From: Streptomyces sp. NBC_00376
Lineage (GTDB): Bacteria; Actinomycetota; Actinomycetes; Streptomycetales; Streptomycetaceae
Assembly (NCBI RefSeq): GCF_036077095.1
Contig: NZ_CP107960.1
Location: forward strand, 6,138,001-6,202,000
Length of the DNA stretch: 64,000 nucleotides
Direction: 5' to 3'
Shown here one piece after another: positions 1 to 26,401 of this stretch (positions are counted from its first letter, which is position 1; each line of letters begins with the position of its first letter). The notes below the pieces were generated by a model. It was not told the origin of the DNA. It did not search any database and saw only the letters and a list, made by a program, of their open reading frames with translations. The position numbers were made by a program, and so were the translations under genes.

Positions 1-1200
1 GACGGCCCCGATGATCAGCGCGGGCAGCGAGGAGTAGGCGAGCCCGATGCCGGCGCCGAGCATCACCGCGATCACCACCGTCTGCCAGGCGGCGCTCATC
101 AGCCCGAGCCCGGCCCCGTAACCGATCGCGATGACCAGCATGCCGAGCATCAGCGAGACCTTGGGGCCCCGGCGGGCGGACAGCCGGGCGTACAGCGGGG
201 CGACGAGCATCATCGTCAGGCCGAGCGGCGCCACGCACAGCCCCGCGACCACCATCGACTGCCCGAGGCCGTACCCCGTCGACGCCGGCAGCTGGAGCAG
301 CTGCGGCAGGACCAGTGAGACGGCGTAGAAGGCGACCCCGACCATGATCGAGGCGAGGTTGGTGAGCAGCACCTCGCGCCGGGCCGTGGTCCGCAGATCG
401 ACCAGCGGGGCCGGGCTGCGCAGCTCGAACAGGCCCCACAGGACGAGGATCGCCAGCGAGGCGCCGATCAGCCCGAGGGTGCTGCCCGAGGTCCAGCCCC
501 AGTCGCTGCCCTTGGTGATGGGCAGCAACAGGCAGACCAGGCCGAGCGACAGCCCCAGCGCGCCGACGAGGTCGAACCGGCCGGGCGCGCGCAGCGTGGG
601 CTCCGGCACGACCAGGACGGTGAGCGCCATCGACAGCACACCGAGACCGGCCGCGCCGAGGAACAGGGTGTGCCAGTCGGAGTGCTGGGCGACCAGCGCG
701 GCGGCGGGCAGCGCCAGGCCGCCGCCGACCCCGATCGAGGAGCTCATCAGCGCCATCGCCGAGCCGAGCCGCTCGGGCGGCAGCTCGTCGCGCATGATGC
801 CGATGCCCAGCGGGATGGCGCCCATGGCGAAGCCCTGGAGCGCGCGTCCCACGATCATGATCACGAGGTCGTCGGTGGAGGCGCATATCAATGAGCCGGC
901 CACCATCACGGCGAGGCTGGCGAGCAGCATCCTCCGCTTGCCGTAGAGGTCACCGAGCCGCCCCATGATCGGGGTGGAGACGGCCCCCGCGAGCAGCGTC
1001 GCGGTCATCACCCAGGTGGCGTTCGACGGGTCGGTGTGGAGAAGGGCGGGCAGGTCCTTGATGACGGGGACGAGCAGGGTCTGCATCACCGCGACGGTGA
1101 TGCCCGCGAAGGCGAGCACGGGGACGACCCCGCCACCCGCCCTGCGCGGCCTCGGATCGGGGAGTTCCCCGGTGTGCTGTCCGTTCGTCGTCTGTGGCAT
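1..1200 (-). CDS. MFS efflux transporter, DHA2 type (3' end outside window)
   Basis: Major facilitator drug:H+ antiporter acting in the cytoplasmic membrane. The first 400 codons are visible and the gene runs off the left edge. Seen: ATG at 1200, a short basic N-terminus, successive hydrophobic segments, and the family motif A (GRLGDLYGKRR) at about residues 80-90 after the second membrane segment. DHA2 proteins normally have 14 segments and about 450-520 residues, so roughly the last fifth is missing. It is divergent from the acyl-CoA dehydrogenase gene with about 260 bp between the starts; that gap carries a KstR-like operator closer to the other gene. The substrate cannot be inferred. Confidence 0.9.
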   Translation of the reverse strand, partial: MPQTTNGQHTGELPDPRPRRAGGGVVPVLAFAGITVAVMQTLLVPVIKDLPALLHTDPSNATWVMTATLLAGAVSTPIMGRLGDLYGKRRMLLASLAVMVAGSLICASTDDLVIMIVGRALQGFAMGAIPLGIGIMRDELPPERLGSAMALMSSSIGVGGGLALPAAALVAQHSDWHTLFLGAAGLGVLSMALTVLVVPEPTLRAPGRFDLVGALGLSLGLVCLLLPITKGSDWGWTSGSTLGLIGASLAILVLWGLFELRSPAPLVDLRTTARREVLLTNLASIMVGVAFYAVSLVLPQLLQLPASTGYGLGQSMVVAGLCVAPLGLTMMLVAPLYARLSARRGPKVSLMLGMLVIAIGYGAGLGLMSAAWQTVVIAVMLGAGIGLAYSSLPALIIGAV

Positions 1201-1404
1201 ACGTGCGCCTCCGGGCGGCGTGATCGAGGTTCTGGGCAGGCATGCGGGCGGCGCGGGCGGGCAGCGCCCGACCGCCAAGTGTGTGCAGCGTGAAACCTTC
1301 CCGGTGTCGGCGGTATTCCGGTGAACGCGGTGCGAACGGGGGCACTACGGCGCACTCGGCCGGAGCGCGCGGAGATCCCTCCGTCATCTGACCTTCCGTC
1401 AGAA

Positions 1405-1418
1405 TGGAACGTGTTCTA
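1405..1418. promoter_or_regulatory. KstR-like operator
   Basis: TGGAACGTGTTCTA fits the KstR consensus TnnAACnnGTTnnA exactly. KstR is the TetR-family repressor of sterol catabolism in mycobacteria and rhodococci. The site lies 42-55 bp upstream of the acyl-CoA dehydrogenase start. A second, fully palindromic copy lies at 10173-10186, before the MaoC gene. No KstR-like gene is in the window, so the regulator is inferred. Confidence 0.65.
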
Positions 1419-1459
1419 CTCTTGCGCCGTTCCAGTGGCTGCGACCGGCGAGGATCCGC

Positions 1460-3640
1460 ATGGGCATCGGAATCACCGAAGAACACAGGGAGTTGGCGCA
1501 GTCCGTACGGGGCTGGCTGGCGCGCGCCGTACCTCCGAAGGAGATCCGCGCACTCCTCGACGCGGACCCGCCCGGTACCTCCGGCGTGCGCCCCGGGTAC
1601 TGGGACGGGCTCGCCGGACAGGGCCTGCTCGCCATCCATCTGCCCGAGGAGCACGGGGGCGGGGGCGGCCGGCTCCTCGATCTGGCCGTGGTCCTCGAAG
1701 AGGCCGGCCGGGCCGCGCTCCCCGGCCCGTACCTGTCGAGCGCCCTGGCCTCCGCCGTACTGCACACGGCGGGCCCGCCCGGCCTCGTGCGCGACCTCGC
1801 GTCCGGTACGCGCATCGGCGCCGTCGCCCTCGGACCCGGCACCCTCACCGCCGTCGAGCGCGAGGACGGCCATCTGCTCGACGGCACGGCGCCGCCCATC
1901 CTCTCCGGAGCCGAGGCCGACCTGCTGCTCCTGCCCGCCGAATCGGCCACCGGCACCCTCTGGTTCGCCGTCGACTCCGCCACCGCCGGGCTGACCGCGC
2001 GCCCGCACCGGGGCGCCGACCCGACCCGGCCCACCGCCGAGGTCCACGCCGAAGGCGTACTCGTCCCGGCCGGCCGCCTCGTACGGACCAGCACCACCCG
2101 CGTCCGCGACCTGGCCGCCGTCCTCCTCGCCGCCGAAGCCTGCGGAACCGCGGCCAGGGCACTGCACACCGCCGCCGAACACGCCAAGGTGCGCGAACAG
2201 TTCGGCCGCCCCATCGGACAGTTCCAGGGCGTCAAGCACCTCTGCGCCGACATGCTCGTACGCGTCGAGCGGGCCCGTGCGCTGGCGTGGGACGCGGCCC
2301 GCGCCGCCGACGAGGAGACGGACCCGGACGTACGGTCCATGGTCGCCGCCCTCGCCGCCTCGGACGCCCTCGACGCCGCGTACGGCTGCGCCAAGGACTG
2401 CATCCAGATCCTCGGTGGCATCGGCTTCACCTGGGAGCACGACGCCCATCTGTATCTGCGCCGGGCCCTGGTGGCCCGCCAGTTGCTGGGGACCGGCGAC
2501 AGCCACCGGCTGCGGGCCGTCCGGCTGGCCGAGGGCGGCGCGCGCCGCTCGCTCGCCCTCGAACTGCCCGCCGACGCCGCCGCCCACCGGGCCGCCGCGC
2601 GCGAGGCCGTCGCCGCCGCCCGCGGCCTCGACCCGAAGGCGGTCCGCCGCACCCTCGCACCGACCGGCTACGCCGCCCCGTACCTCCCCGCCCCCTACGG
2701 CCTGGGCGCAGGCCCCGTACAACAACTCGCCATCCAGCAGGAGTTGAAGGAACAAGGGGTGAAGCTGAGCGACCTCGGGATCGCCACCTGGGTGGTGCCC
2801 TCGCTCCTCGCCCACGGGACGGCCGAGCAGCAGGAGCGCTACCTGCTGCCCACCCTGCGCGGCGAACTCCTTTGGTGCCAGCTGTTCTCGGAGCCCGACG
2901 CGGGATCCGACCTCGCCTCGCTGCGCACGAAGGCGGAACGGACCGACGAGGGCTGGCGGATCAACGGCCAGAAGGTGTGGACGAGCGCTGCCCAGTGGGC
3001 CGACCACGGGATCCTGCTCGCCAGGACCGACCCGGACGCCCCCAAGCACCAGGGGATCGGCTACTTCCTCGTCGACATGAAGAACACCCCGGGCATCGGG
3101 ATCCGGCCGCTGAAGGAGATCACCGGCGACGCCCTCTTCAACGAGGTGTACTTCGACGACGTCCTGCTGCCCGCCGACGCCGTCGTGGGCGAGCCCACCG
3201 GCGGCTGGAAGGTCGCCCGCAACACCCTGGGCAACGAACGCGTCCACATGGCCGACCAGATGACCTTCGACACCGGCCTGGAGGCGCTGATCGCCCGCTC
3301 CGGCGAACTCGACGGCGCCTGCCGGGCCCGCATCGGAGCACTCGCCGCCGAGGCACACGCACTGGGCTGCATCGGGCTGCGCACCACGATGCGGCAGGTC
3401 TCCGGGCTCGAACCCGGCGCGGGTGCCTCCGTCCGCAAGCTCGTCCAGACCACCCACCAGCAGAAGGTCGCCGAACTCGCCCTCGAACTGCTCGGCCCGG
3501 CGGGCGCGGCCGGCGAGGGGCCGGGGGAGCGGGCCCTGCACGGCTTCCTGATGTCCCGCTGCCTGACCATCGCGGGCGGCACCACCCAGGTTCAGCTCAA
3601 TGTCGTCGCCGAGCGCATTCTCGGCCTCCCGCGCGATTGA
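1460..3640 (+). CDS. Fused two-domain acyl-CoA dehydrogenase (FadE34-like)
   Basis: FAD-dependent alpha,beta-dehydrogenation of an acyl-CoA. The 726 residues hold two acyl-CoA dehydrogenase units. The N-terminal half (about 1-350) includes a glycine-rich [13 protein letters not shown] segment. The C-terminal half (about 370-726) carries the FAD/substrate motif around [14 protein letters not shown] (about residue 472) and ends with the typical TIAGGTTQ...ILGLPRD tail. Single ACADs are about 390 residues. Sterol-specific ACADs are alpha2beta2 enzymes, and mycobacterial FadE34 is a comparable fusion of about 710 residues. A KstR-like site upstream and a thiolase gene 11 bp downstream support a sterol or related side-chain substrate; the exact substrate is inference. 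Confidence 0.88.
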
Positions 3641-3651
3641 AGGGACTTTCC

Positions 3652-4875
3652 ATGAAGCCCATGAAGCCCATGAAGCTCATGAAGGCGTACGTCGTCGGCG
3701 TCGGAATGACGAAGTTCGAGAAGCCCGAGACCCGCGACTGGCAGTACTGGGACATGGCGAAGGAGGCCGGGACGGCGGCGCTCGACGACGCCGGGGTCAC
3801 GTACGAGCAGATCCAGCAGGCCGTCGTCGGCTACTGCTTCCAGCCCTCCACCGCCGGTCAGCGCGCGGTGTACGGACTCGGCCTGACCGGGATCCCCGTC
3901 TACAACGTCAACAACAACTGCGCCACCGGCTCCACCGCCCTGATGATGGCCCGGCAGTTCGTCGAGGGCGGCGGCAGCGACTGCGTCCTCGCGCTCGGCT
4001 TCGAGAAGATGACGCGCGGCGCGCTCGGCGGTGGTGGCGCGGACGGCGGTGCCGCCGACTTCAAGACGTCACCCGTCGCCCGGCACTACGGGATCATGGC
4101 CGCCGCCCACGGCTTCGAGATGAGCCCGCCCACCGCCCAGATATTCGGCAACGCGGCCCGCGAGCACATGGAGCGGTACGGGACGACCGAGGCGCAGCTC
4201 GCCGCGGTCGGCGCCAAGAACCACCGGCACTCGGTGAACAACCCGTACGCCCAGTTCCAGGACCCGTACACGGTCGAGGAGATACTCGCCGCGAAGACCG
4301 TCCACCGCCCGCTGACCAAGCTCCAGTGCTCACCCACCTCGGACGGCGCGGCCGCCGCCGTGGTCGTGTCGGAACGCTTCGTCGAGACCCACGGCCTGGG
4401 CGACAGGGCGGTCGAGATCGTCGCCCAGGCCATGACCACCGACACCACCGACTCCTTCGCCTCGGGGACCTGCATCGACGCCGTGGGCCGGCCGATGTCG
4501 CAGGCCGCCGCCCGGCAGGTCTACGAGGCGTCCGGGCTCTCGGCCGCCGACCTGGACGTCATCGAACTGCACGACTGCTTCTCCATCAACGAACTCCTCA
4601 CCTACGAGGCGCTCGGGCTGTGCGGCGAGGGCGAGTCCGGGAAGCTCGTCGAGTCGGGCGCCACCACATACGGCGGGCGCTGGGTGGTCAACCCGTCCGG
4701 CGGGCTGATCTCCAAGGGACACCCGCTCGGCGCCACCGGCATCGCCCAGACCGCCGAACTGACCTGGCAGCTCAGGGGCGAGGCGGGAAACAGGCAGGTG
4801 AAGGATGCCCGGGTCGGCCTCGCCCACAACATCGGGCTCGGCGGAGCGGCGGTGGTGACGCTGCTGCGGCGGTAG
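3652..4875 (+). CDS. SCP-x type thiolase / lipid-transfer protein
   Basis: Thiolase-superfamily enzyme of 407 residues, likely the carbon-carbon cleaving step of beta-oxidation or an Ltp-type aldol cleavage. Seen: a probable nucleophile Cys90 in NNNCATGS, the HDCFS motif at about 307-311 and GHPLGATG at about 356-363, all typical of the SCP-x thiolase family annotated as lipid-transfer proteins. The AAGGGA ribosome site overlaps the end of the preceding gene, so the two are probably co-transcribed. The N-terminus is a triplicated MKP/MKP/MKL followed by MKA, leaving four possible ATG starts (3652, 3661, 3670, 3679). Homology begins at about the fourth. Confidence 0.88.
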
Positions 4876-4915
4876 GCCCGAATACCGATGTACGGGGCGA
4901 TGCGCGGGTGCGAGT

Positions 4916-6346
4916 ATGACGGACATGGTTGACGTCACCACGCCCGCGCCGCCGCGAGAGCGGACCAGCACCCGCACCTGGGCGGCGGTGCTCGCCGCCT
5001 GCATCGGCCAGTTCCTCGTCGTGCTCGACGTGTCCGTCGTCAACGTCGCCCTGCCGTCCATGCGTTCCGACCTCCAGATGAGCTCCGCCGGACTCCAGTG
5101 GGTGCTCAACGCCTACTCGATCGCGTTCGCCGGATTCATGCTCCTCGGCGGACGCGCCGCGGACATATACGGCCGCAAGCGGATGTTCCTCATAGGGCTC
5201 GGCCTGTTCACCGCCGCCTCCCTGGCCGGCGGGCTCGCCCAGGAGGGCTGGCAGCTGCTCGCCGCCCGCGCCGCGCAGGGGCTCGGCGCCGCCGTGCTCG
5301 CCCCCGCCACCCTGACCCTGCTCACCACCGCCGTCCCCGAGGGCCCGGCCAGGACGAAGGCGATCGGCACCTGGATGGCCGTCGGTGCGGGCGGCGGCGC
5401 GGCCGGCGGGCTGATCGGCGGGGTGCTGACCGATCTGCTCTCCTGGCGCTGGGTGCTGCTGGTCAACGTACCCATCGGGGTGCTGGTTCTGGCCGGCGCC
5501 GCCGTCCGGCTCGTGGAGGGCCGGGCCGGGGACCGGCGGCGGATCGACCTCCTGGGCGCGGTACTGGTCACGGTGGGCCTCGCCTGCGTCGCGTACGGCA
5601 TCGTGCAGACCGAGGAGTCGGGGTGGGCCGCGACGGCGACCCTGGCACCGCTGCTCGGCGGGGTGGCCCTGCTGGGCGTCTTCGTGGCGGTGGAGGCCCG
5701 GACGGCGGAGCCGCTGATGCCGCTGCGGGTGCTCGGGGCGCGGGCGGTGACATCGGCCAACGCGGCGATGTTCGTGATCGGTTCGGCGACCTTCTCGATG
5801 TGGTACTTCATGACCGTGTACGCCCAGGCCGTGCTGGACTACAGCCCGCTGGAGGCCGGACTCGCCCTGATGCCCACGTCATTGGCGATCGTTCTCGGCT
5901 CGAAGTGCGCGCCCAGGGTGATGGCCGTGACCGGCACGAAGAACCTGGCGCTCATCGGTACGGCGGTCGCCGCGGCCGGTTTCGGCTGGCAGTCCACGAT
6001 GGGCGCCGACGGTTCGTACCTCACCTCGGTCTGCCTGCCAGGGATCCTGATGATGGCCGGTGCGGGCCTGGCGTCCACGCCGCTCGCCTCGCTGGCCATC
6101 ACCGGCGCGGCCCCCGGCGAGGCCGGTCTGGTCTCCGGGCTCGTCAACACCTCCCGCACGATGGGCGGTGCGCTCGGTCTCGCCGTGCTCTCCACCGTCG
6201 CGGCGGCCCGCACCGCGGGCGGCACCGGACCGGAGGAGCTCACGGCCGGGTACGCGCTCGCCTTCCGGACGGCCGGCACGGTGCTGCTGGGCGGGCTGCT
6301 GCTGATGGTGCTCTGGCTGCCGCGCGCCCGGTCTGCCAGGCGCTGA
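4916..6346 (+). CDS. MFS drug efflux transporter, DHA2/EmrB family
   Basis: Proton-coupled exporter of the 14-segment DHA2 family, 476 residues, in the cytoplasmic membrane. Seen: the LDVSVVNVALP segment in the first membrane helix, motif A GGRAADIYGRKRM in the loop after the second helix, alternating hydrophobic segments, and a basic C-terminus. It lies 40 bp after the thiolase on the same strand and may share its transcript. The ATG at 4916 has only a weak ribosome site, and the ATG at 4925 is an alternative. The substrate is unknown; export of a sterol-derived or toxic compound is possible but unsupported beyond position. Confidence 0.9.
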   Translation: MTDMVDVTTPAPPRERTSTRTWAAVLAACIGQFLVVLDVSVVNVALPSMRSDLQMSSAGLQWVLNAYSIAFAGFMLLGGRAADIYGRKRMFLIGLGLFTAASLAGGLAQEGWQLLAARAAQGLGAAVLAPATLTLLTTAVPEGPARTKAIGTWMAVGAGGGAAGGLIGGVLTDLLSWRWVLLVNVPIGVLVLAGAAVRLVEGRAGDRRRIDLLGAVLVTVGLACVAYGIVQTEESGWAATATLAPLLGGVALLGVFVAVEARTAEPLMPLRVLGARAVTSANAAMFVIGSATFSMWYFMTVYAQAVLDYSPLEAGLALMPTSLAIVLGSKCAPRVMAVTGTKNLALIGTAVAAAGFGWQSTMGADGSYLTSVCLPGILMMAGAGLASTPLASLAITGAAPGEAGLVSGLVNTSRTMGGALGLAVLSTVAAARTAGGTGPEELTAGYALAFRTAGTVLLGGLLLMVLWLPRARSARR

Positions 6347-6386
6347 GGCGAGAGGCCCGCCCGCGCCCGGTCGGCCCGGCGCTGAG
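6323..6386 (+). repeat. Imperfect duplication of a gene 3' end
   Basis: The last 22 bases of the MFS gene plus three more (6323-6347, containing the TGA stop) reappear at 6362-6386 with 23 of 25 bases identical, including the CGCTGAG. The copy lies in the gap between convergent genes. Similar stop-codon-containing tail duplications occur near 19172, 29599 and 45228. Confidence 0.7.
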
Positions 6387-6403
6387 ACGCGGGGCCGCAG
6401 GCC

Positions 6404-7036
6404 CTACAGCCACCCCTGCTGTCGCGCCGCCCGCACCGCCTCCATCCGGTTGCGGGTCCCCGTCTTGCCGATCGCCGCGGACAGGTAGTTCCGCACCGTC
6501 GACTCGGACAGATGCAGCCTTGCCGCGATGTCGGCGACCGTCGCCCCGTCCACCGAGGCGTTCAGCGCGTCCCGTTCCCGCGCGGTCAGCGGGCTCGGGC
6601 CGGCACTGAGTGCGGCGGCGGCCAGCGCCGGGTCGATCACCGTCTCCCCGCCCAGCACCCGGCGGATCGCGGCGGCGAGCTCCTCGACCGGACCGTCCTT
6701 GACCAGGAACCCCGCCGCCCCGGCCTCCATCGCCCGGCGCAGATAGCCGGGGCGGCCGAACGTGGTGAGGATCAGCACCCGGCAGTCCGGTACCTCCTCG
6801 CGCAGATCGGCGGCGGCGTCCAGCCCGCTGCGGCCCGGCAGTTCGATGTCGAGCAGCGCCACATCGGGGCGGGACAGCAGCGCGGCGTCCACGATCTCGT
6901 CCCCGGCGGCCACCTGCGCCACGACCTCGATGTCGGGCTCCAGACCGAGCAGCAGCGCGAGCGCGCCCCGCATCATTCCCTGGTCCTCGGCGAGCAGCAC
7001 ACGTACGGACTTGGCCGGACGGTGGTCCTGCGGCAT
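6404..7036 (-). CDS. LuxR-family (NarL/DesR-like) response regulator
   Basis: Transcription factor of 210 residues, output of the sensor kinase encoded just upstream. Seen: receiver domain with acidic E17-D18, phospho-acceptor Asp63 in LLDIELPG, the Thr91-Thr92 region and Lys113 in FLVKDG. A LuxR helix-turn-helix follows at about 150-210 (LTARERD ... HLSESTVRNYL). Start: the ATG at 7036 is preceded by GGGACGG at 8 bases spacing. A GTG at 7045 would overlap the kinase stop as GTGA and is the alternative. Last gene of a four-gene operon with ABC ATPase, permease and kinase; it likely controls that exporter. Confidence 0.93.
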   Translation of the reverse strand: MPQDHRPAKSVRVLLAEDQGMMRGALALLLGLEPDIEVVAQVAAGDEIVDAALLSRPDVALLDIELPGRSGLDAAADLREEVPDCRVLILTTFGRPGYLRRAMEAGAAGFLVKDGPVEELAAAIRRVLGGETVIDPALAAAALSAGPSPLTARERDALNASVDGATVADIAARLHLSESTVRNYLSAAIGKTGTRNRMEAVRAARQQGWL

Positions 7037-7041
7037 CTCGT

Positions 7042-8283
7042 TCACCGTCCCAGCGTATGGCTCGTGGCGGTATCGGGAGTGCCGGCCGCGTCCGCCGGGC
7101 CCGCCTCGTCCACCGGGAGCTGTGCCGTGACCACGAAGCCGCGCTCCGGCCCCGGGCTCGCGCGCAGGCTGCCGCCCGCCGCGGCGAGGCGTTCGGTGAG
7201 CCCGGTCAGTCCGGTGCCGCCGATGCCGGGCGTGGCCGGGGCGTCCGGGTCGGGGCCGCGGCCGTCGTCGGTGACCGTCAGCCGGACCCGTTCGGCCGTG
7301 CCCTCGACCACGAACGAGCAGGTGGTCGCGCGGGAGTGGCGTACGACGTTGGTGACGGCCTCCCGTACCACCCACCCCAGCAGCGCCTCCGTCTGCGGGG
7401 CGAGCGGCGGTCCCGAGCGGCGGAGCACCGGTTCGATCCCGGCGGCGGTCAGCGCGGAGCGGGCCCGGTCCAGTTCGGTGGCCAGGCTGCCCTCCCGGTA
7501 GCCGGTGACGGCCTCCCGGATCTCGGTGAGGGCCTGCCGGCCGACGGACTCGATGTCGGCGACCTGGGTGAGCGCCGCGTCCATGTCGCGCGGCGCGAGC
7601 CGGCGGGCGGCCTCCGACTTGACCACGATCACGGAGAGCGTGTGACCCAGCAGATCGTGCAGATCGCGGGAGAAGCGCAGCCGCTCCTTCTCGACGGCGG
7701 TACGGGCCAGTTCCTGCCGGGTGGCGCGCAGTTCCATCACCGTCTCCGCGAGGGTGAGGAGCGCGGCCGTCACCGCACCCGAGATGAAGGTGCCGTAACC
7801 GATCGTCCACGGGTCCGAGCCGCCGTTGCCGCGCCACACCGCCACGAAGGTGGCGACCGCGGCGAGCGTGAGCATGCAGACCGCCAGTTGCCGGTTGCGC
7901 AGGACGGAGCCGCAGGCCAGCGAGAGCAGCGGGAAGAACAGCAGCCAGCTCCCGCCGTAGCCGATCGCCAGCGCGAGGGTGATGGCGGCCATCGCGGCGA
8001 GCAGCCAGTACGACACCGGGCTCTCGCGCTTCCTCCTGTCGAAGGAGCGGAACACCACCGAGATGTAGAGGGAGTTGAAGGCGAGCAGCCCGAGACCGCC
8101 GAGCCAGGGGTTGGCCGCCTCGCCCTGGAAGAGATTGGAGAAGGAGCCCATCCCCATCAGCAGCCAGGGCAGCAGGGCGTACGGGCCGGGCGGGCCGGGG
8201 CGCCGCTCCTCGCCCCTCCTGCGCCGGCGCCACCACGGGCCCGGCCGCCCCTCCGCACACGCATCCGCCCGGTTCCTGGCCAT
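7042..8283 (-). CDS. Sensor histidine kinase (DesK/HPK7 type)
   Basis: Membrane histidine kinase, 413 residues from the chosen ATG. Seen: several N-terminal membrane segments, a dimerisation/phosphoacceptor helix with His209 in RDLHDLLGHTL (HisKA_3 type), and a HATPase domain with the N-box EAVTNVVRHS and G-box DDGRGPD. Start: the ATG at 8283 sits behind AGGAGGGG, much better than the in-frame GTG at 8307, which directly follows the permease stop. It pairs with the LuxR-type regulator downstream. Kinases of this kind linked to ABC-2 exporters often answer membrane-active compounds; that is family knowledge, not shown here. Confidence 0.92.
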   Translation of the reverse strand: MARNRADACAEGRPGPWWRRRRRGEERRPGPPGPYALLPWLLMGMGSFSNLFQGEAANPWLGGLGLLAFNSLYISVVFRSFDRRKRESPVSYWLLAAMAAITLALAIGYGGSWLLFFPLLSLACGSVLRNRQLAVCMLTLAAVATFVAVWRGNGGSDPWTIGYGTFISGAVTAALLTLAETVMELRATRQELARTAVEKERLRFSRDLHDLLGHTLSVIVVKSEAARRLAPRDMDAALTQVADIESVGRQALTEIREAVTGYREGSLATELDRARSALTAAGIEPVLRRSGPPLAPQTEALLGWVVREAVTNVVRHSRATTCSFVVEGTAERVRLTVTDDGRGPDPDAPATPGIGGTGLTGLTERLAAAGGSLRASPGPERGFVVTAQLPVDEAGPADAAGTPDTATSHTLGR

Positions 8284-8307
8284 GTCCCCTCCTGTCACAC
8301 GGTCCAC

Positions 8308-9030
8308 TCACACGGTCCTTGCGGACCGACGGTACGAGACCACGGCGTACGTGCCGAACAGCAGGAGCCAGGCGCTGAGCACCGCGACCGTGCCGACGCC
8401 GGGCGCGTGGCCCTCGGTGGTCGCCCAGCCCAGGTCGGCGAAGCGGTTGGCCGGGGTGAACCTGCCGATGGAACGCAGCCATCCGGGCAGCAGCTCCAGC
8501 GGGAACCACAGCCCGCCGACGACCCCGAAGCCCATCAGGCAGGCCACGTTGACCACCCCGGTGCCCTGCGGGGTGAGCCGGTAGCCGTTGCCGAGGCCGA
8601 GCATGGTGAACGGCAGCGCGCCGATCCACAGCAGCACCGCCAGCGCGATCCACTGCCAGGCGTCCAGCCGTACCCCGTTGACCAGCCCGCCGGCCAGCAG
8701 CACCGTGAAGATCGTCGGCAGGACCGTCACCGAACCGCTGATCGCGCGGCCCACGACCGCCTGCGAGGGCGAGAGCGGAGTGACCCGCAACTGCTCCAGC
8801 CAGCCCAGGGTCTTGTCGGAGGCGACCCCTGTACCGATCGACATGGCGGAGCCCAGCGCCCCGTACGCGGCCATGCCGACCATCGAGGCGGTCCTCCAGC
8901 CGTCGACGTCGGTGCCGCCGCCGATGTTGGTGAAGAGCAGGTACATCATCACCGGCATGCCGGTCCCGAAGATCAGGAAGGAACTGTCACGCAGGGTCCG
9001 GCGGATTTCGAGCACGATGTAGCGGTACAT
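8308..9030 (-). CDS. ABC-2 type exporter permease
   Basis: Membrane subunit (240 residues) of an ABC-2 exporter with about six hydrophobic segments. The N-terminal pattern YIVLEIRRTLRDSSFLIF and the later LRVTPLSPSQAVVGR loop are typical of DrrB/NatB-like permeases. Its ATG overlaps the last base of the ATPase stop (TGATG at 9028-9032), which indicates translational coupling; GAGAGGGAGAA lies upstream as ribosome site. It forms an exporter with the ATPase encoded before it. The cargo (antibiotic, lipid or peptide) cannot be read from sequence. Confidence 0.92.
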   Translation of the reverse strand: MYRYIVLEIRRTLRDSSFLIFGTGMPVMMYLLFTNIGGGTDVDGWRTASMVGMAAYGALGSAMSIGTGVASDKTLGWLEQLRVTPLSPSQAVVGRAISGSVTVLPTIFTVLLAGGLVNGVRLDAWQWIALAVLLWIGALPFTMLGLGNGYRLTPQGTGVVNVACLMGFGVVGGLWFPLELLPGWLRSIGRFTPANRFADLGWATTEGHAPGVGTVAVLSAWLLLFGTYAVVSYRRSARTV

Positions 9031-9971
9031 CAGACGTTCTCCCTCTCGGAAGCGGTCGTGGCGGCTGGTGCGGTGAGGGAGAGGAACGCGTCCTCCAGCG
9101 TGGCCCGGGAGACCTGGAGGCCGCGGATCGCGTCCAGGCGGGCCAGCTCCCGGACGGTGTCGTCCGAGTCGTCGGTGTGCAGCAGCGCCCGGTCCCCGGA
9201 CACCTCGACGGTGACCACGCCGGGCAGCAGCTCCAGGCCCCCGGTCGGGCGGCCCGCCAGGTCGAAGGAGACGAGGCCGCGGCCGGCCGAGCCCCGGAGC
9301 GTGTCGCCGGTGCCGTCCGCGACGATCCGGCCCCGGTCGATCACGACGATCCGGTCGGCGTTCTCGTCGGCCTCCTCCAGGTAGTGGGTGGAGAACAGGA
9401 CGGTGTTGCCGCGCCGGGCGTAGGCCCGCATCGAGTCCCAGAACGTGCGGCGCGCCTCCACGTCCAGGGCGGCGGTCGGCTCGTCCAGGACGATCAGTTC
9501 CGGATTGCCGGCCAGCGCGACGGCGAAGCGGACGCGCTGGGTCTGGCCGCCGGAGAGCTTGTCGATGCGCCGGTTCGCGTATTCGCTCAGCCCCGCCAGC
9601 GCGAGCGCCTCGGAGACCGGCATCGGCTCCGGGTAGGTCGAGGCGACGAAGTCGACCAGCTCGCGGACGGTGACCCGCTGGATGGGCCGCCCGTCCTGGA
9701 GCATGGCACCGACCAGACCGTCCCGCACCGCGTGTTCGGCACTCCGGCCCAGCACCCGCACGGTGCCGGAGTCCGGCTGGTCGAGGCCGAGCAGCAGCCG
9801 GATGGTGCTGGACTTGCCCGCGCCGTTGCGGCCGAGCAGGGCGACGGTCTCGCCGCGGCCGATGGACAGATCGATCCCGTCCACGGCCCGTACGCGGCGC
9901 TCCGCCCGGCCGAAGGTCTTGACCACCCCGGTGAGGTCCACCGCGGCTCCGTTCCCCGTTGTCTGCGTCAT
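9030..9971 (-). CDS. ABC exporter ATP-binding protein (DrrA-like)
   Basis: ATPase of 313 residues driving the ABC-2 exporter. Seen: Walker A GRNGAGKSS (about 47-55), signature LSGGQTQRV, Walker B LIVLDEPTA, and a switch histidine in STHYLEEAD. An extended C-terminal domain follows, as in DrrA/CcmA proteins. Start: the ATG at 9971 (MTQTTGNG) fits the family. Upstream ATG/GTG codons only extend through non-conserved sequence, and no strong ribosome site precedes it. First gene of the ATPase-permease-kinase-regulator operon. Two perfect palindromes upstream (10014-10025 and 10031-10046) are candidate regulator sites. Confidence 0.92.
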   Translation of the reverse strand: MTQTTGNGAAVDLTGVVKTFGRAERRVRAVDGIDLSIGRGETVALLGRNGAGKSSTIRLLLGLDQPDSGTVRVLGRSAEHAVRDGLVGAMLQDGRPIQRVTVRELVDFVASTYPEPMPVSEALALAGLSEYANRRIDKLSGGQTQRVRFAVALAGNPELIVLDEPTAALDVEARRTFWDSMRAYARRGNTVLFSTHYLEEADENADRIVVIDRGRIVADGTGDTLRGSAGRGLVSFDLAGRPTGGLELLPGVVTVEVSGDRALLHTDDSDDTVRELARLDAIRGLQVSRATLEDAFLSLTAPAATTASERENV

Positions 9972-10013
9972 GGACACGACGTTACGGAGACCGCCACGGA
10001 CCCCGGCAGATGT

Positions 10014-10046
10014 GTCCGTACGGACTTCGCCATGACATATGTCATG
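10014..10046. promoter_or_regulatory. Two adjacent palindromes upstream of the ABC/two-component operon
   Basis: GTCCGTACGGAC (10014-10025) is a perfect 12-bp palindrome and CATGACATATGTCATG (10031-10046) a perfect 16-bp palindrome, 43-75 bp upstream of the ATPase start. NarL/LuxR-type response regulators commonly bind such inverted repeats, so autoregulation by the operon's own regulator is a reasonable inference. Confidence 0.5.
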
Positions 10047-10172
10047 ACCGGGGGACAGGGCCCGGCATGATCCGGACATGGATCGAGAGGCAGCCCCGCC
10101 AAGGAATCTGACGCTACGTCAGCAGTGGTCTTCCCAACCGCTGGGCACTGCGTTATACATGGGTTCATCGGC

Positions 10173-10186
10173 TAGAACGCGTTCTA
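10173..10186. promoter_or_regulatory. KstR-like operator (palindromic)
   Basis: TAGAACGCGTTCTA matches TnnAACnnGTTnnA and sits inside the perfect 16-bp palindrome CTAGAACGCGTTCTAG (10172-10187). A second overlapping palindrome GTTCTAGAAC follows at 10181-10190. A possible -10 element, TATACAT (10154-10160), lies just upstream, so a bound repressor would block transcription of the MaoC gene 96 bp downstream. It pairs with the site at 1405-1418. Confidence 0.7.
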
Positions 10187-10282: not shown

Positions 10283-11155
10283 ATGCCCATTGATGCCGAA
10301 AAGGCTCTCGCCGCCGAACCCCGCTCCACCCGGATCAGCTGGGGCCACAAGGACGTCCAGCTCTACCACCTCGGGATCGGCGCGGGCTTCGGCCCCGACC
10401 GCCCCGATGCCGCGACCGACCCCGCCGAGCTGCGCTACACGCTGGAGTCCCGGCTCCAGGTGCTGCCCTCCTTCGCCACCGTCGCGGGCGCCGGCATGGG
10501 CGTCGTCGGCGGACTCTCCTCGCCCGGCATCGACATCGACCTAGCCGCCGTCCTGCACGGCGGGCAGAGCGTGCGGGTGCACCGGCCGATCCCGGTGAAG
10601 GGCAGCGCCGAAGTGACCTCGAAGGTCGCCGCGGTGTACGACAAGGGCAAGGCGGCCGTGCTGGTGCTGCGCACCGAGGCCGCCGACGAGGAGGGCCCGC
10701 TGTGGACCAACGACGCCCAGATCTACGTACGGGGCGAGGGCGGCTTCGGCGGTGAACGCGGCCCGTCCGAACGGGCCGCCTACCCCGCGATCGCCCCGAA
10801 CCACATCGTGCAGCGTCCCATCAGGCCGGACCAGGCGCTGCTGTACCGCCTCTCCGGAGACTGGAACCCGCTGCACGCCGACCCCGAATTCGCCGCGCTC
10901 GCCGGCTTCGACCGGCCGATCCTGCACGGACTGTGCACCTACGGCATCACGCTCAAGGCCGTCACCGACACGGTCCTCGGCGGCGATGTGACCCGTATCC
11001 GCTCCTACCGCACCCGTTTCACCGGGATCGTCTTCCCCGGCGAGACCCTCCGCATCGAGATGTGGACGTCCGAGAACCAGGTGCGGGTCGAGGTGAGGGC
11101 CGTGGAGCGGGACAACGCCATGGTTCTCGGCGACACCTTCGTCGAACACTCCTGA
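10283..11155 (+). CDS. MaoC-family enoyl-CoA hydratase (double hot-dog)
   Basis: Hydrates an enoyl-CoA to the 3-hydroxyacyl-CoA. The 290 residues contain a degenerate N-terminal hot-dog and a C-terminal hot-dog with the hydratase-2 motif YRLSGDWNPLHAD, giving catalytic Asp193 and His198 with Asn195, followed by GFDRPILHGLC. This is the architecture of the 17-beta-HSD4 hydratase domain and of actinobacterial Hsd4B/ChsH3-type sterol hydratases. First gene of a three-gene block (hydratase, zinc dehydrogenase, SDR) behind a KstR-like operator. The ATG follows GGAGCAG at a suitable distance. Confidence 0.88.
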   Translation: MPIDAEKALAAEPRSTRISWGHKDVQLYHLGIGAGFGPDRPDAATDPAELRYTLESRLQVLPSFATVAGAGMGVVGGLSSPGIDIDLAAVLHGGQSVRVHRPIPVKGSAEVTSKVAAVYDKGKAAVLVLRTEAADEEGPLWTNDAQIYVRGEGGFGGERGPSERAAYPAIAPNHIVQRPIRPDQALLYRLSGDWNPLHADPEFAALAGFDRPILHGLCTYGITLKAVTDTVLGGDVTRIRSYRTRFTGIVFPGETLRIEMWTSENQVRVEVRAVERDNAMVLGDTFVEHS

Positions 11156-11251: not shown

Positions 11252-12328
11252 ATGCGCGCAGCCGTACTGCACGAGATAGGCCAGGAGAAACTCGAAGTAC
11301 TCGACGACGTCGAGGCGGTGGGCTTCGGCCCCGGCAAGGTCAGGCTCCGCATCCGGGCCACCGGGCTGTGCCACTCCGACGTCTCCGCGATGAGCGGCGT
11401 GCTGCCGCAGCCCGCCCCGTTCATCCCGGGCCACGAGGGCGCCGGCGAGGTCATGGACGTCGGCGACGGTGTCACCGGTCTCAGCGCCGGGGACCGGGTG
11501 CTGGTCTGCTGGCTGCCCGCCTGTGGGGCTTGTCCGTCCTGCAAGCGCGGCCAGACCCAGCTCTGCCTGGCCGGCTTCATGAACGCGGGCACCCCCAACT
11601 TCAAGCGCCCCGGCGGCGACGTGTTCGGCTTCGCGGGCACCGGCACCTTCACCGAGGAGGTCGTCGTCGGCGCGGGCTGCGCGGTGCCGATCCCGGACGA
11701 CGTGCCGTTCGAGATCGCCGCGCTGATCGGCTGCGGGGTGACCACCGGGCTCGGCGCCGCCATCAACACCGCGAAGGTGGAGGCCGGTTCGTCGGTCGCC
11801 GTGATCGGCTGCGGCGGCGTCGGGATCTCCACCATCCAGGGCGCCAGGGTGCAGGGCGCCGCCCAGATCGTGGCCGTGGACCCGGTCGCCTCGCGGCGCG
11901 AGGCGGCGCTGCGGTTCGGCGCGACCGAGGCGGTGTCGCCCGACGAGTTCGCCGACGCCAAGCAGCGGATCACCGCGGGCGAGGGCTTCGACTACGTCTT
12001 CGAGGTCGTCGGCAAGTCGGCCACCGCACGCACGGCGTACGAGAACACCCGGCGCGGCGGCACCCTGTGCGTCGTCGGCGCGGGCGCGATGGACGACAAC
12101 TTCCAGGTCAACATGTTCGAGCTGTTCTTCGACGAGAAGCGGATCCTGCCCTCCATGTACGGGGGCGGCGACGTGCTCCGCTCGTACGAACGGGCCATCG
12201 CACTCTGGCGGGCCGGCCGGATCGACCTCGAATCGATGATCACCCACCGGGTGCGGCTCGACGGGATCAACGACGCACTCGACCAGATGCGGACCGGCGA
12301 GTCGCTGCGCACCTGCGTCGAGCTCTGA
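11252..12328 (+). CDS. Zinc-dependent alcohol dehydrogenase
   Basis: Medium-chain NAD(P)-dependent dehydrogenase, 358 residues. Catalytic zinc ligands are Cys40 (GLCHSD) and the His61-Glu62 pair (GHEGAGEV). Four structural-zinc cysteines, C91, C94, C97 and C105, are intact, and a GCGGVG nucleotide motif lies near residue 188. Start: the ATG at 11252 follows GAGGGGAG at 8 bases; the in-frame ATG 18 bases upstream overlaps that site. It resembles AdhD-type enzymes found with sterol genes and could oxidise a side-chain alcohol, but the substrate is inferred from neighbours only. Confidence 0.9.
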   Translation: MRAAVLHEIGQEKLEVLDDVEAVGFGPGKVRLRIRATGLCHSDVSAMSGVLPQPAPFIPGHEGAGEVMDVGDGVTGLSAGDRVLVCWLPACGACPSCKRGQTQLCLAGFMNAGTPNFKRPGGDVFGFAGTGTFTEEVVVGAGCAVPIPDDVPFEIAALIGCGVTTGLGAAINTAKVEAGSSVAVIGCGGVGISTIQGARVQGAAQIVAVDPVASRREAALRFGATEAVSPDEFADAKQRITAGEGFDYVFEVVGKSATARTAYENTRRGGTLCVVGAGAMDDNFQVNMFELFFDEKRILPSMYGGGDVLRSYERAIALWRAGRIDLESMITHRVRLDGINDALDQMRTGESLRTCVEL

Positions 12329-12369: not shown

Positions 12370-13311
12370 ATGTCACTTCCCCTGGACGGCATGTCCGCGA
12401 TCGTCACCGGCGCGGGCCGCGGCCTCGGACGCGCCGAAGCGCTGGAACTGGCGGGGCTGGGCGCGTCCGTGGTCGTCAACGACTACGGGCAGCCGGGCCG
12501 CGACGGCTCCGGCGAGGCGTCCGCGACGCCCGCCGAGGAGGTCGCCGAGGAGATCCGGGCCGCGGGCGGCCGGGCCGTCGCGCACCTCGGCGACGTCTCC
12601 GACCACGAACAGGCCCGCGCCCTGGTGGAGCTGGCCGTCGACACCTACGGAAAGCTCGACATCCTGGTCAACAACGCGGGCATCCTGCGCGACCGGATGA
12701 TCTTCTCGATGACCGAGGACGAGTGGGACTCGGTCATCAGGGTCCACCTCAAGGGCCACTTCAACACCACGCACTTCGCCGCCGCGCACTGGCGCACCCG
12801 CTCCAAGGAGTCCGGCGGCCCGGTCCACGGACGGATCATCAACACCTCGTCCGAGGCGTTCCTGGCCGGTTCGGCGGGCCAGCCGAACTACGCGGCGGCC
12901 AAGGGCGGCATCGTCGGTCTCACCACCTCCACGGCCCTGGCCCTGGCCAGGTACGGAGTCACCGCCAACGCCATCTGCCCGCGGGCCCGCACCCGGATGA
13001 CCGAGGACGTCTTCGCGGGCTTCCAGGAGCCGACGGACGGCCGGCTCGACGCGCTCGCCCCCGAGCACGTCGCGCCGCTGGTCGGCTATCTGGCCTCCCC
13101 GGCCGCCGCCAAGGTCAACGGGCAGCTGCTAGTGGTGCACGGCGGGATGGTCGCGATCGTCGAACGCCCCAGGGTGGCGGCGAAGTTCGACTCCTCGAAG
13201 GAGACGTTCTCCTTCGACGAACTGGACGAGCTGATCTCGCCGTACTACGAGGACCGCCCGCCGAACGAGACCTTCGCCGCGGCGGAGGTGCTCGGCCTGA
13301 AGCGGGGCTGA
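12370..13311 (+). CDS. Short-chain dehydrogenase, 3-hydroxyacyl-CoA type (Hsd4A-like)
   Basis: NAD(P)-dependent Rossmann enzyme, 313 residues, placed to oxidise the 3-hydroxyacyl-CoA made by the MaoC protein. Seen: TGAGRGLG at 13-20, NNAG, and the active-site serine pair near 160-161 with Tyr174 and Lys178 (NYAAAK). The C-terminal extension of about 50 residues beyond a basic SDR is as in Hsd4A and the dehydrogenase part of 17-beta-HSD4. A GAGAGGACTGGAGAG ribosome region precedes the ATG. Last gene of the block; a strong hairpin follows at 13331. Confidence 0.88.
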   Translation: MSLPLDGMSAIVTGAGRGLGRAEALELAGLGASVVVNDYGQPGRDGSGEASATPAEEVAEEIRAAGGRAVAHLGDVSDHEQARALVELAVDTYGKLDILVNNAGILRDRMIFSMTEDEWDSVIRVHLKGHFNTTHFAAAHWRTRSKESGGPVHGRIINTSSEAFLAGSAGQPNYAAAKGGIVGLTTSTALALARYGVTANAICPRARTRMTEDVFAGFQEPTDGRLDALAPEHVAPLVGYLASPAAAKVNGQLLVVHGGMVAIVERPRVAAKFDSSKETFSFDELDELISPYYEDRPPNETFAAAEVLGLKRG

Positions 13312-26279: not shown

Positions 26280-26306
26280 TTGACGGGATATCTGACGATC
26301 CGTCAA
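26280..26306. promoter_or_regulatory. Clustered TGACGG half-sites
   Basis: TTGACGG (26280-26286), TGACG (26293-26297) and the inverse CGTCA (26301-26305) give the palindrome TGACG ATC CGTCA and an outer pair TTGACGG/CCGTCAA, 32-58 bp upstream of the oxidoreductase start. Looks like a repressor site; the regulator is unknown. Confidence 0.45.
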
Positions 26307-26401
26307 CCCTCTTGCTCAAGCTATCGGACGGAGGTTCGGCGGGGCATCCGGCTCCGGGTGGAGCCTGTCGGCCGTCTCGTGCCGCCGGGCGCTGGTCATG
26401 G

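Follow-up and report, generated by a model that had tools for sequence, protein, structure and literature searches.

Two blocks of beta-oxidation genes, all on the forward strand, lie in the window (the whole 64 kb stretch of DNA that was analysed). Block 1 consists of fadE (1460..3640), which by family matches encodes a fused two-domain acyl-CoA dehydrogenase of the FadE34 type, exact orthology unsettled, with no PDB match at E<=1e-40, and of ltp (3652..4875), encoding a lipid-transfer protein/SCP2-thiolase type 1 (NF006102, 631 bits, cutoff 436; 6hsj, E 4.7e-154). Block 2 consists of maoC (10283..11155), an MFE-2-type enoyl-CoA hydratase 2 (PF22622 and PF01575; 7mku, E 1.1e-56; 1s9c, E 5.4e-53), adh (11252..12328), a zinc-binding alcohol dehydrogenase by family matches, and sdr (12370..13311), a short-chain dehydrogenase of the (3R)-hydroxyacyl-CoA dehydrogenase type (NF005862, 494.6 bits, cutoff 414; 2et6, E 1.5e-85). 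The interval between the blocks holds a transporter gene and, by translation, response regulator, kinase and ABC transporter genes, while the start of an MFS transporter gene, read from its translation, occupies the reverse strand at 1..1200 and runs on to the left of the window.

Hydratase 2, (3R)-dehydrogenase and SCP2-thiolase, which characterise an MFE-2/SCPx-type module, are all present by family and PDB matches. The two blocks jointly are predicted to encode one MFE-2/SCPx-like round of beta-oxidation, which would run from dehydrogenation through hydratase 2 and (3R)-dehydrogenase to SCP2-thiolase. Peroxisomes use MFE-2/SCPx beta-oxidation on branched and sterol side chains. The resemblance to that system extends to hydratase 2, the (3R)-hydroxyacyl-CoA dehydrogenase type and SCP2-thiolase type 1, but the bacterial enzymes are on separate genes, and an acyl-CoA dehydrogenase stands where the peroxisomal system uses an oxidase.

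Each block is preceded by a putative KstR-type operator of 14 bp, listed without strand: K-site 1 (TGGAACGTGTTCTA, 1405..1418) upstream of fadE (ATG 1460), and K-site 2 (TAGAACGCGTTCTA, 10173..10186), a perfect palindrome, upstream of maoC (ATG 10283). The original prediction had placed one exact match before each beta-oxidation block, with no further copy in the window, and the sequence agrees on every point: TNNAACNNGTTNNA has 2 matches in the 64 kb, where 0.04 would be expected, and 0/100 shuffles of the window reached that number. The same two sites are the only window matches of TnnAACnnGTTnnA. Their assignment draws on the pattern match, on conservation upstream of fadE and maoC, and on the list of published M. 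smegmatis KstR sites, in which the 14-mer of K-site 1 recurs identically at MSMEG_0305/0306 and that of K-site 2 at MSMEG_5919 and MSMEG_5932 (PMC1995591). In the RT-qPCR column of that table MSMEG_5932 is positive, while MSMEG_0305/0306 and MSMEG_5919 are given as n.d. (PMC1995591). Promoter scans of both operator regions gave no sigma-70-like match. The MFS transporter gene is divergent from K-site 1, and its co-control from this site is possible.

In the whole genome the loose pattern TNNAACNNGTTNNA occurs at 43 places, a modest enrichment over the 14 found with a reversed-pattern control. By itself it is little proof, because 19 of the 34 places that were looked up are inside called genes, with 13 intergenic and 2 unplaceable (genes outside the window were called by a simple codon-position script, so that their starts are approximate). 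TNRAACNNGTTCTA has 5 places (7 matches, 2 places being palindromic) against 0 for the reversed control: 4452591, 5564329 (inside a gene), 6121538, 6139405 and 6148173. The first of these, G000:C1:4452591-4452604 (L036), reads TAGAACAGGTTCTA and is a candidate KstR site before an acyl-CoA dehydrogenase gene adjoining paa-like genes, an arrangement also seen in other Streptomyces. Across 31 Streptomyces genomes, TNRAACNNGTTCTA has 147 matches against 37 for the control, palindromic places being counted twice. Of 20 regions picked from that list, the K-site stands before a lone acyl-CoA dehydrogenase gene (~390–400 aa) in 14, before an acyl-CoA dehydrogenase gene beside paa genes in 2, and within a gene in 1; the remaining 3 are ltp/maoC, fadE/kstR and cholesterol oxidase. 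Tandem TTGAACNNGTTCAA pairs with 44 bp spacing at G000:C1:872745-872802 and 3456683-3456740 are probably operators of another regulator.

The strong evidence is conservation at orthologous promoters. A K-site is present in all of the best 80 of 544 confirmed maoC upstreams, and in 20/20 fadE upstreams long enough to be counted (150 bp or more; 20 of 30 matches). The maoC set comprises loci found via the hydratase, from related and thus non-independent genomes; 79 of these best 80 of 544 are titled Streptomyces, Actinobacteria bacterium or MAG of Streptomyces, and one is Microtetraspora glauca. Resampling, computed on the maoC upstreams only, gave null frequencies of 0.00075 for the K-site and 0.001 for the second palindrome described below at <=1 mismatch. 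Within the best 80 of 544, 65 loci extend 9.5 kb or more to the left of maoC, and fadE was seen in 29 of them. Among the same best 80 of 544, ltp lacks a preceding fadE in 14 loci, and in 8/14 of these the K-site stands before ltp; the other six comprise four with 0–247 bp to inspect, two of these being without any upstream sequence, and two with 350 bp that are unmatched. These counts of fadE, ltp and maoC loci mean that the two-operon layout is common in the genus. That the K-sites are chance matches to a degenerate palindrome would fit the 43 loose matches in the genome and the intragenic position of 19 of the 32 placeable ones. With the excess over expectation in the window and the retention of the sites upstream of both maoC and fadE, such an origin is extremely unlikely, and we reject it because the K-sites are conserved at orthologous promoters. 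The proposal that two operons belong to one putative KstR-type regulon is supported.

A regulator is also at hand. The statement that no kstR gene is nearby holds within the window but not beyond its edge, as a search for a KstR homologue identified a KstR-like TetR protein of 203 aa, recognised by PDB, domain and NCBIfam matches and encoded on the reverse strand (G000:C1:6120767-6121375), at a distance of 16.6 kb from the left edge of the window and 18 kb from K-site 1. Since the motif exceeds chance and the genome encodes a KstR homologue, neither of the two objections that had been anticipated, chance density of the motif and the lack of a homologue, applies. PDB chains of M. tuberculosis KstR match the protein at E 1e-41, with 3bjb, a TetR protein of unstated function, slightly better, and its TetR_N (57.4 bits) and TetR_C_20 (94.2 bits) domains are both above cutoff. 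KstR is its best NCBIfam family, yet the score of 198 bits is below the equivalog cutoff of 280, which is passed in 16 of 197 genomes of the class. Mean identity over the DNA-reading residues 13–66 is 65% to 16 KstR proteins of family f4 (the reference set, all above the NCBIfam cutoff), 69% to 8 relatives from f20 and 55% to 5 f4 paralogues, and over the ligand domain (residues 67–200) 32%, 32% and 22%, respectively. Membership in the f4 paralogue clade is unsupported, as identity is 40% to f4 KstR against 31% to the 5 paralogues and the protein falls outside that clade in the tree, where open forks and long branches leave the deep branching order unsure. The origin of KstR has been placed in the ancestor of Mycobacterium and Rhodococcus, with 2–3 paralogues in more distant organisms (PMC3388012).

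The promoter of the KstR-like gene itself carries TnnAACnnGTTnnA (6121538-6121551), and the motif recurs in the kstR promoter at 29/30 Streptomyces loci (the best 30 of 140 genomes). The protein is found in 140/150 Streptomyces at E<=1e-30. All 16 f4 kstR promoters read TAGAACNNGTTCTA. Among relatives elsewhere, the exact motif lies <=500 bp upstream in 1/8 each for f20 and f14 and in 0/8 each for f11, f13, f15 and f28, the f14 and f15 counts including one paralogue each. Some other TetR protein with a similar operator might read the sites, leaving the KstR-like gene a bystander; the genome has 124 TetR_N matches, only part of which were scored as candidates, palindromes of the form TTGAACNNGTTCAA occur in it as well, and KstR kin in other families often have no motif. 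Against this reading, which we regard as improbable, stand the motif at the KstR-like promoter in 29/30 of those loci (best 30 of 140 genomes) and a DNA-reading region close to that of KstR. K-site 1 and K-site 2 very probably serve as operators in a KstR-type regulon, the regulator being encoded 18 kb away.

The likeness to the Mycobacterium KstR regulon (Kendall 2007, PMC1995591) covers the operator TnnAACnnGTTnnA, with both 14-mers in its list, a TetR repressor with the motif at its own promoter, and beta-oxidation genes of the side-chain type. Unlike in that regulon, the Streptomyces regulator lies 18 kb from fadE and falls short of the family cutoff for KstR, few conserved targets were seen, HsaC and KstD gave no match, and a second palindrome is paired with the operator. 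Mycobacterial kstR adjoins fadE; the Streptomyces gene does not, its neighbour reads as a glycosyltransferase gene, and a position divergent from fadE34 is thus not what we find. The regulator is best called KstR-type rather than KstR, because family cutoff, synteny and ring-gene content all fail. In S. coelicolor, SCO2319 was named a possible KstR orthologue in one sentence, and the text on it gives neither operators nor a regulon (PMC1995591). Like the protein described here it is a Streptomyces KstR-like TetR protein without synteny (PMC1995591), and the two may be orthologues. Beyond that sentence we found no description of a Streptomyces KstR-type regulon in the literature searched, which excluded most subscription titles; one match to 'kst' was an unrelated usage.

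Absent from the original prediction is a second conserved palindrome (S) at both promoters, of the form TCTGAC-N5-GTCAGA and also present at many other acyl-CoA genes. The copy at fadE (TCTGACCTTCCGTCAGA, 1387..1403, no strand) abuts K-site 1; it is retained with <=1 mismatch in 20/20 fadE upstreams, and the S-to-K offset is 18 bp in 19/20. The copy at maoC (TCTGACGCTACGTCAGC, 10107..10123, no strand) is found with <=1 mismatch in 48/80 and with <=2 in 77/80 maoC upstreams (best 80 of 544), where at <=2 mismatches S lies 61–70 bp (mostly 63) or 78–79 bp upstream of K. A third S-like palindrome in the window, at 26291-26307, has 2 mismatches. Over the whole genome, TCTGACNNNNCGTCAGA with <=1 mismatch gives 25 matches forward and 25 in reverse, at 30 distinct places, against 3 and 2 for the control; for the S-core, relaxing it to one mismatch lowers the enrichment to 478 against 249.

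Seven S places fall within 50 kb (G000:C1:3756938-3807628; L055–L057), beside genes that, by reading only, appear to encode acyl-CoA dehydrogenases, CoA ligases, thiolases, amidohydrolases and a short-chain dehydrogenase, and this cluster is probably a catabolic regulon. A TetR gene (3770774-3771409) inside it has only a 3-mismatch S-like site upstream and no PDB match at E<=0.001. Proximity did not single out an S regulator, as the exact S-cores (35) and TetR_N matches (108) on C1 come no closer to each other than 6 kb. One perfect S copy lies upstream of a luciferase-like gene that scores 437 bits for the Rv3520c family, above its cutoff of 335; the KstR site of M. tuberculosis Rv3520c is positive by gel shift (PMC1995591). 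Divergent MBL-fold hydrolase and aldehyde dehydrogenase genes of the source genome share an S-site and the near-K sequence CGAGAACTTGTTCCAG (L066:3795-4064), and the same arrangement at L197:15705-15939 has a K-site. Strings of the S motif were not found in the literature text searched. We suggest that a second factor, acting on S, co-controls both operons. It is unlikely, in our estimate, that both operons are governed chiefly by this factor, with KstR only fine-tuning them: S is retained beside K and has 30 distinct places at <=1 mismatch, but at maoC it is looser (48/80 at <=1 mismatch) than K (80/80, both among the best 80 of 544).

We favour a KstR-type repressor as the switch of both operons, and the question is then what its regulon degrades. 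The original prediction spoke of a sterol-type regulon; its KstR-type operators are supported, but a sterol is no more than a candidate substrate. HsaC had no match in the source genome at E<=1e-30 (15/16 first-look candidates scored), nor KstD at E<=1e-60 (10/18 scored), and by these two markers neither ring-degradation genes in the regulon nor the 9,10-seco pathway were recognised, so that 'sterol-type' can mean at most side-chain work. One Rieske protein (345 aa, 78.1 bits) is above the KshA_C cutoff. KstD is matched in 47 of the 140 KstR-positive Streptomyces, HsaC at any level in 32, and neither in 85; HsaC at >=48% occurs in 9, all with KstD. The 10 KstR-negative Streptomyces include 1 with KstD and 0 with HsaC. 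No K-site was present at the Streptomyces hsa clusters of L303 and L304 or at the KstD regions of L302 and L305. In L303 and L304 an hsaA-D-C-B-kstD-like cluster lies beside an IclR-type gene, with neither a KstR nor a KstR2 pattern within 20 kb; in L303 this gene matches, below cutoff, the PcaR/PcaU family, which we take to be IclR-type. A survey found steroid pathways to be absent from 55/57 Streptomyces (PMC4810484).

A K-site does stand before cholesterol oxidase in at least 2 of the 31 Streptomyces genomes, L199 (1coy, E 1.9e-223) and L301, where the oxidase was identified by likeness to that of L199 and the site sits between it and a KstD above the family cutoff. In family f4, a maoC homologue (49–51%) adjoins a KstD-like gene, with no K-site in those 3.8-kb loci, and kstR has a divergent fadE (47–49%) next to it, hsa-like genes lying farther out; the f4 hsa, ksh and most KstD names are presumptive, resting on translations and gene order. 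In 5 f4 genomes another fadE copy, away from kstR, gives slightly more bits than the kstR-linked one, which leaves the FadE34 name unsettled. In Nocardioides simplex, a putative KstR site has been reported for cholesterol oxidase (PMC9782250). These comparisons make it likely that the regulon is linked to sterols by descent, though it may act on another substrate today. There is close to an even chance that the same KstR-type repressor serves a non-sterol substrate, such as a methyl-branched fatty acid, terpenoid or other polycyclic acyl-CoA. The unmatched HsaC and KstD, the diverged ligand domain (32% identity), the 85/140 KstR-positive Streptomyces with neither marker and the occurrence of S at other acyl-CoA genes all fit such a substrate, but the K-site before cholesterol oxidase in two species and the f4 maoC kin beside KstD-like genes do not, and side-chain shortening does not need ring cleavage.

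Taken as a whole, we consider it probable that a KstR-type side-chain regulon is uncoupled from steroid ring degradation in the source organism and is co-controlled through S. The TetR repressor would bind TnnAACnnGTTnnA at its own promoter, at fadE-ltp and at maoC-adh-sdr, and probably also at one or two acyl-CoA dehydrogenase genes that stand alone, until an acyl-CoA ligand releases it. What appears to be new is how widely a KstR-type regulon extends across Streptomyces, that it is separate from ring degradation and that its operator is paired with a second one. More speculatively, and with the balance rather against it, KstR may be older than and separable from ring catabolism, Streptomyces having a stand-alone side-chain module whose operators are shared with a second regulator of a wider polycyclic/terpenoid acyl-CoA regulon that includes the 50-kb cluster at 3.756–3.808 Mb; the mycobacterial cholesterol regulon would then be a later expansion. 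The result points to a further operator, S, and a catabolic regulon. That 140/150 Streptomyces have a KstR-type switch with this operator, 85 of them without a match to either ring marker searched, raises the question of the original ligand of KstR, and offers harmless laboratory species in which that question may be addressed.
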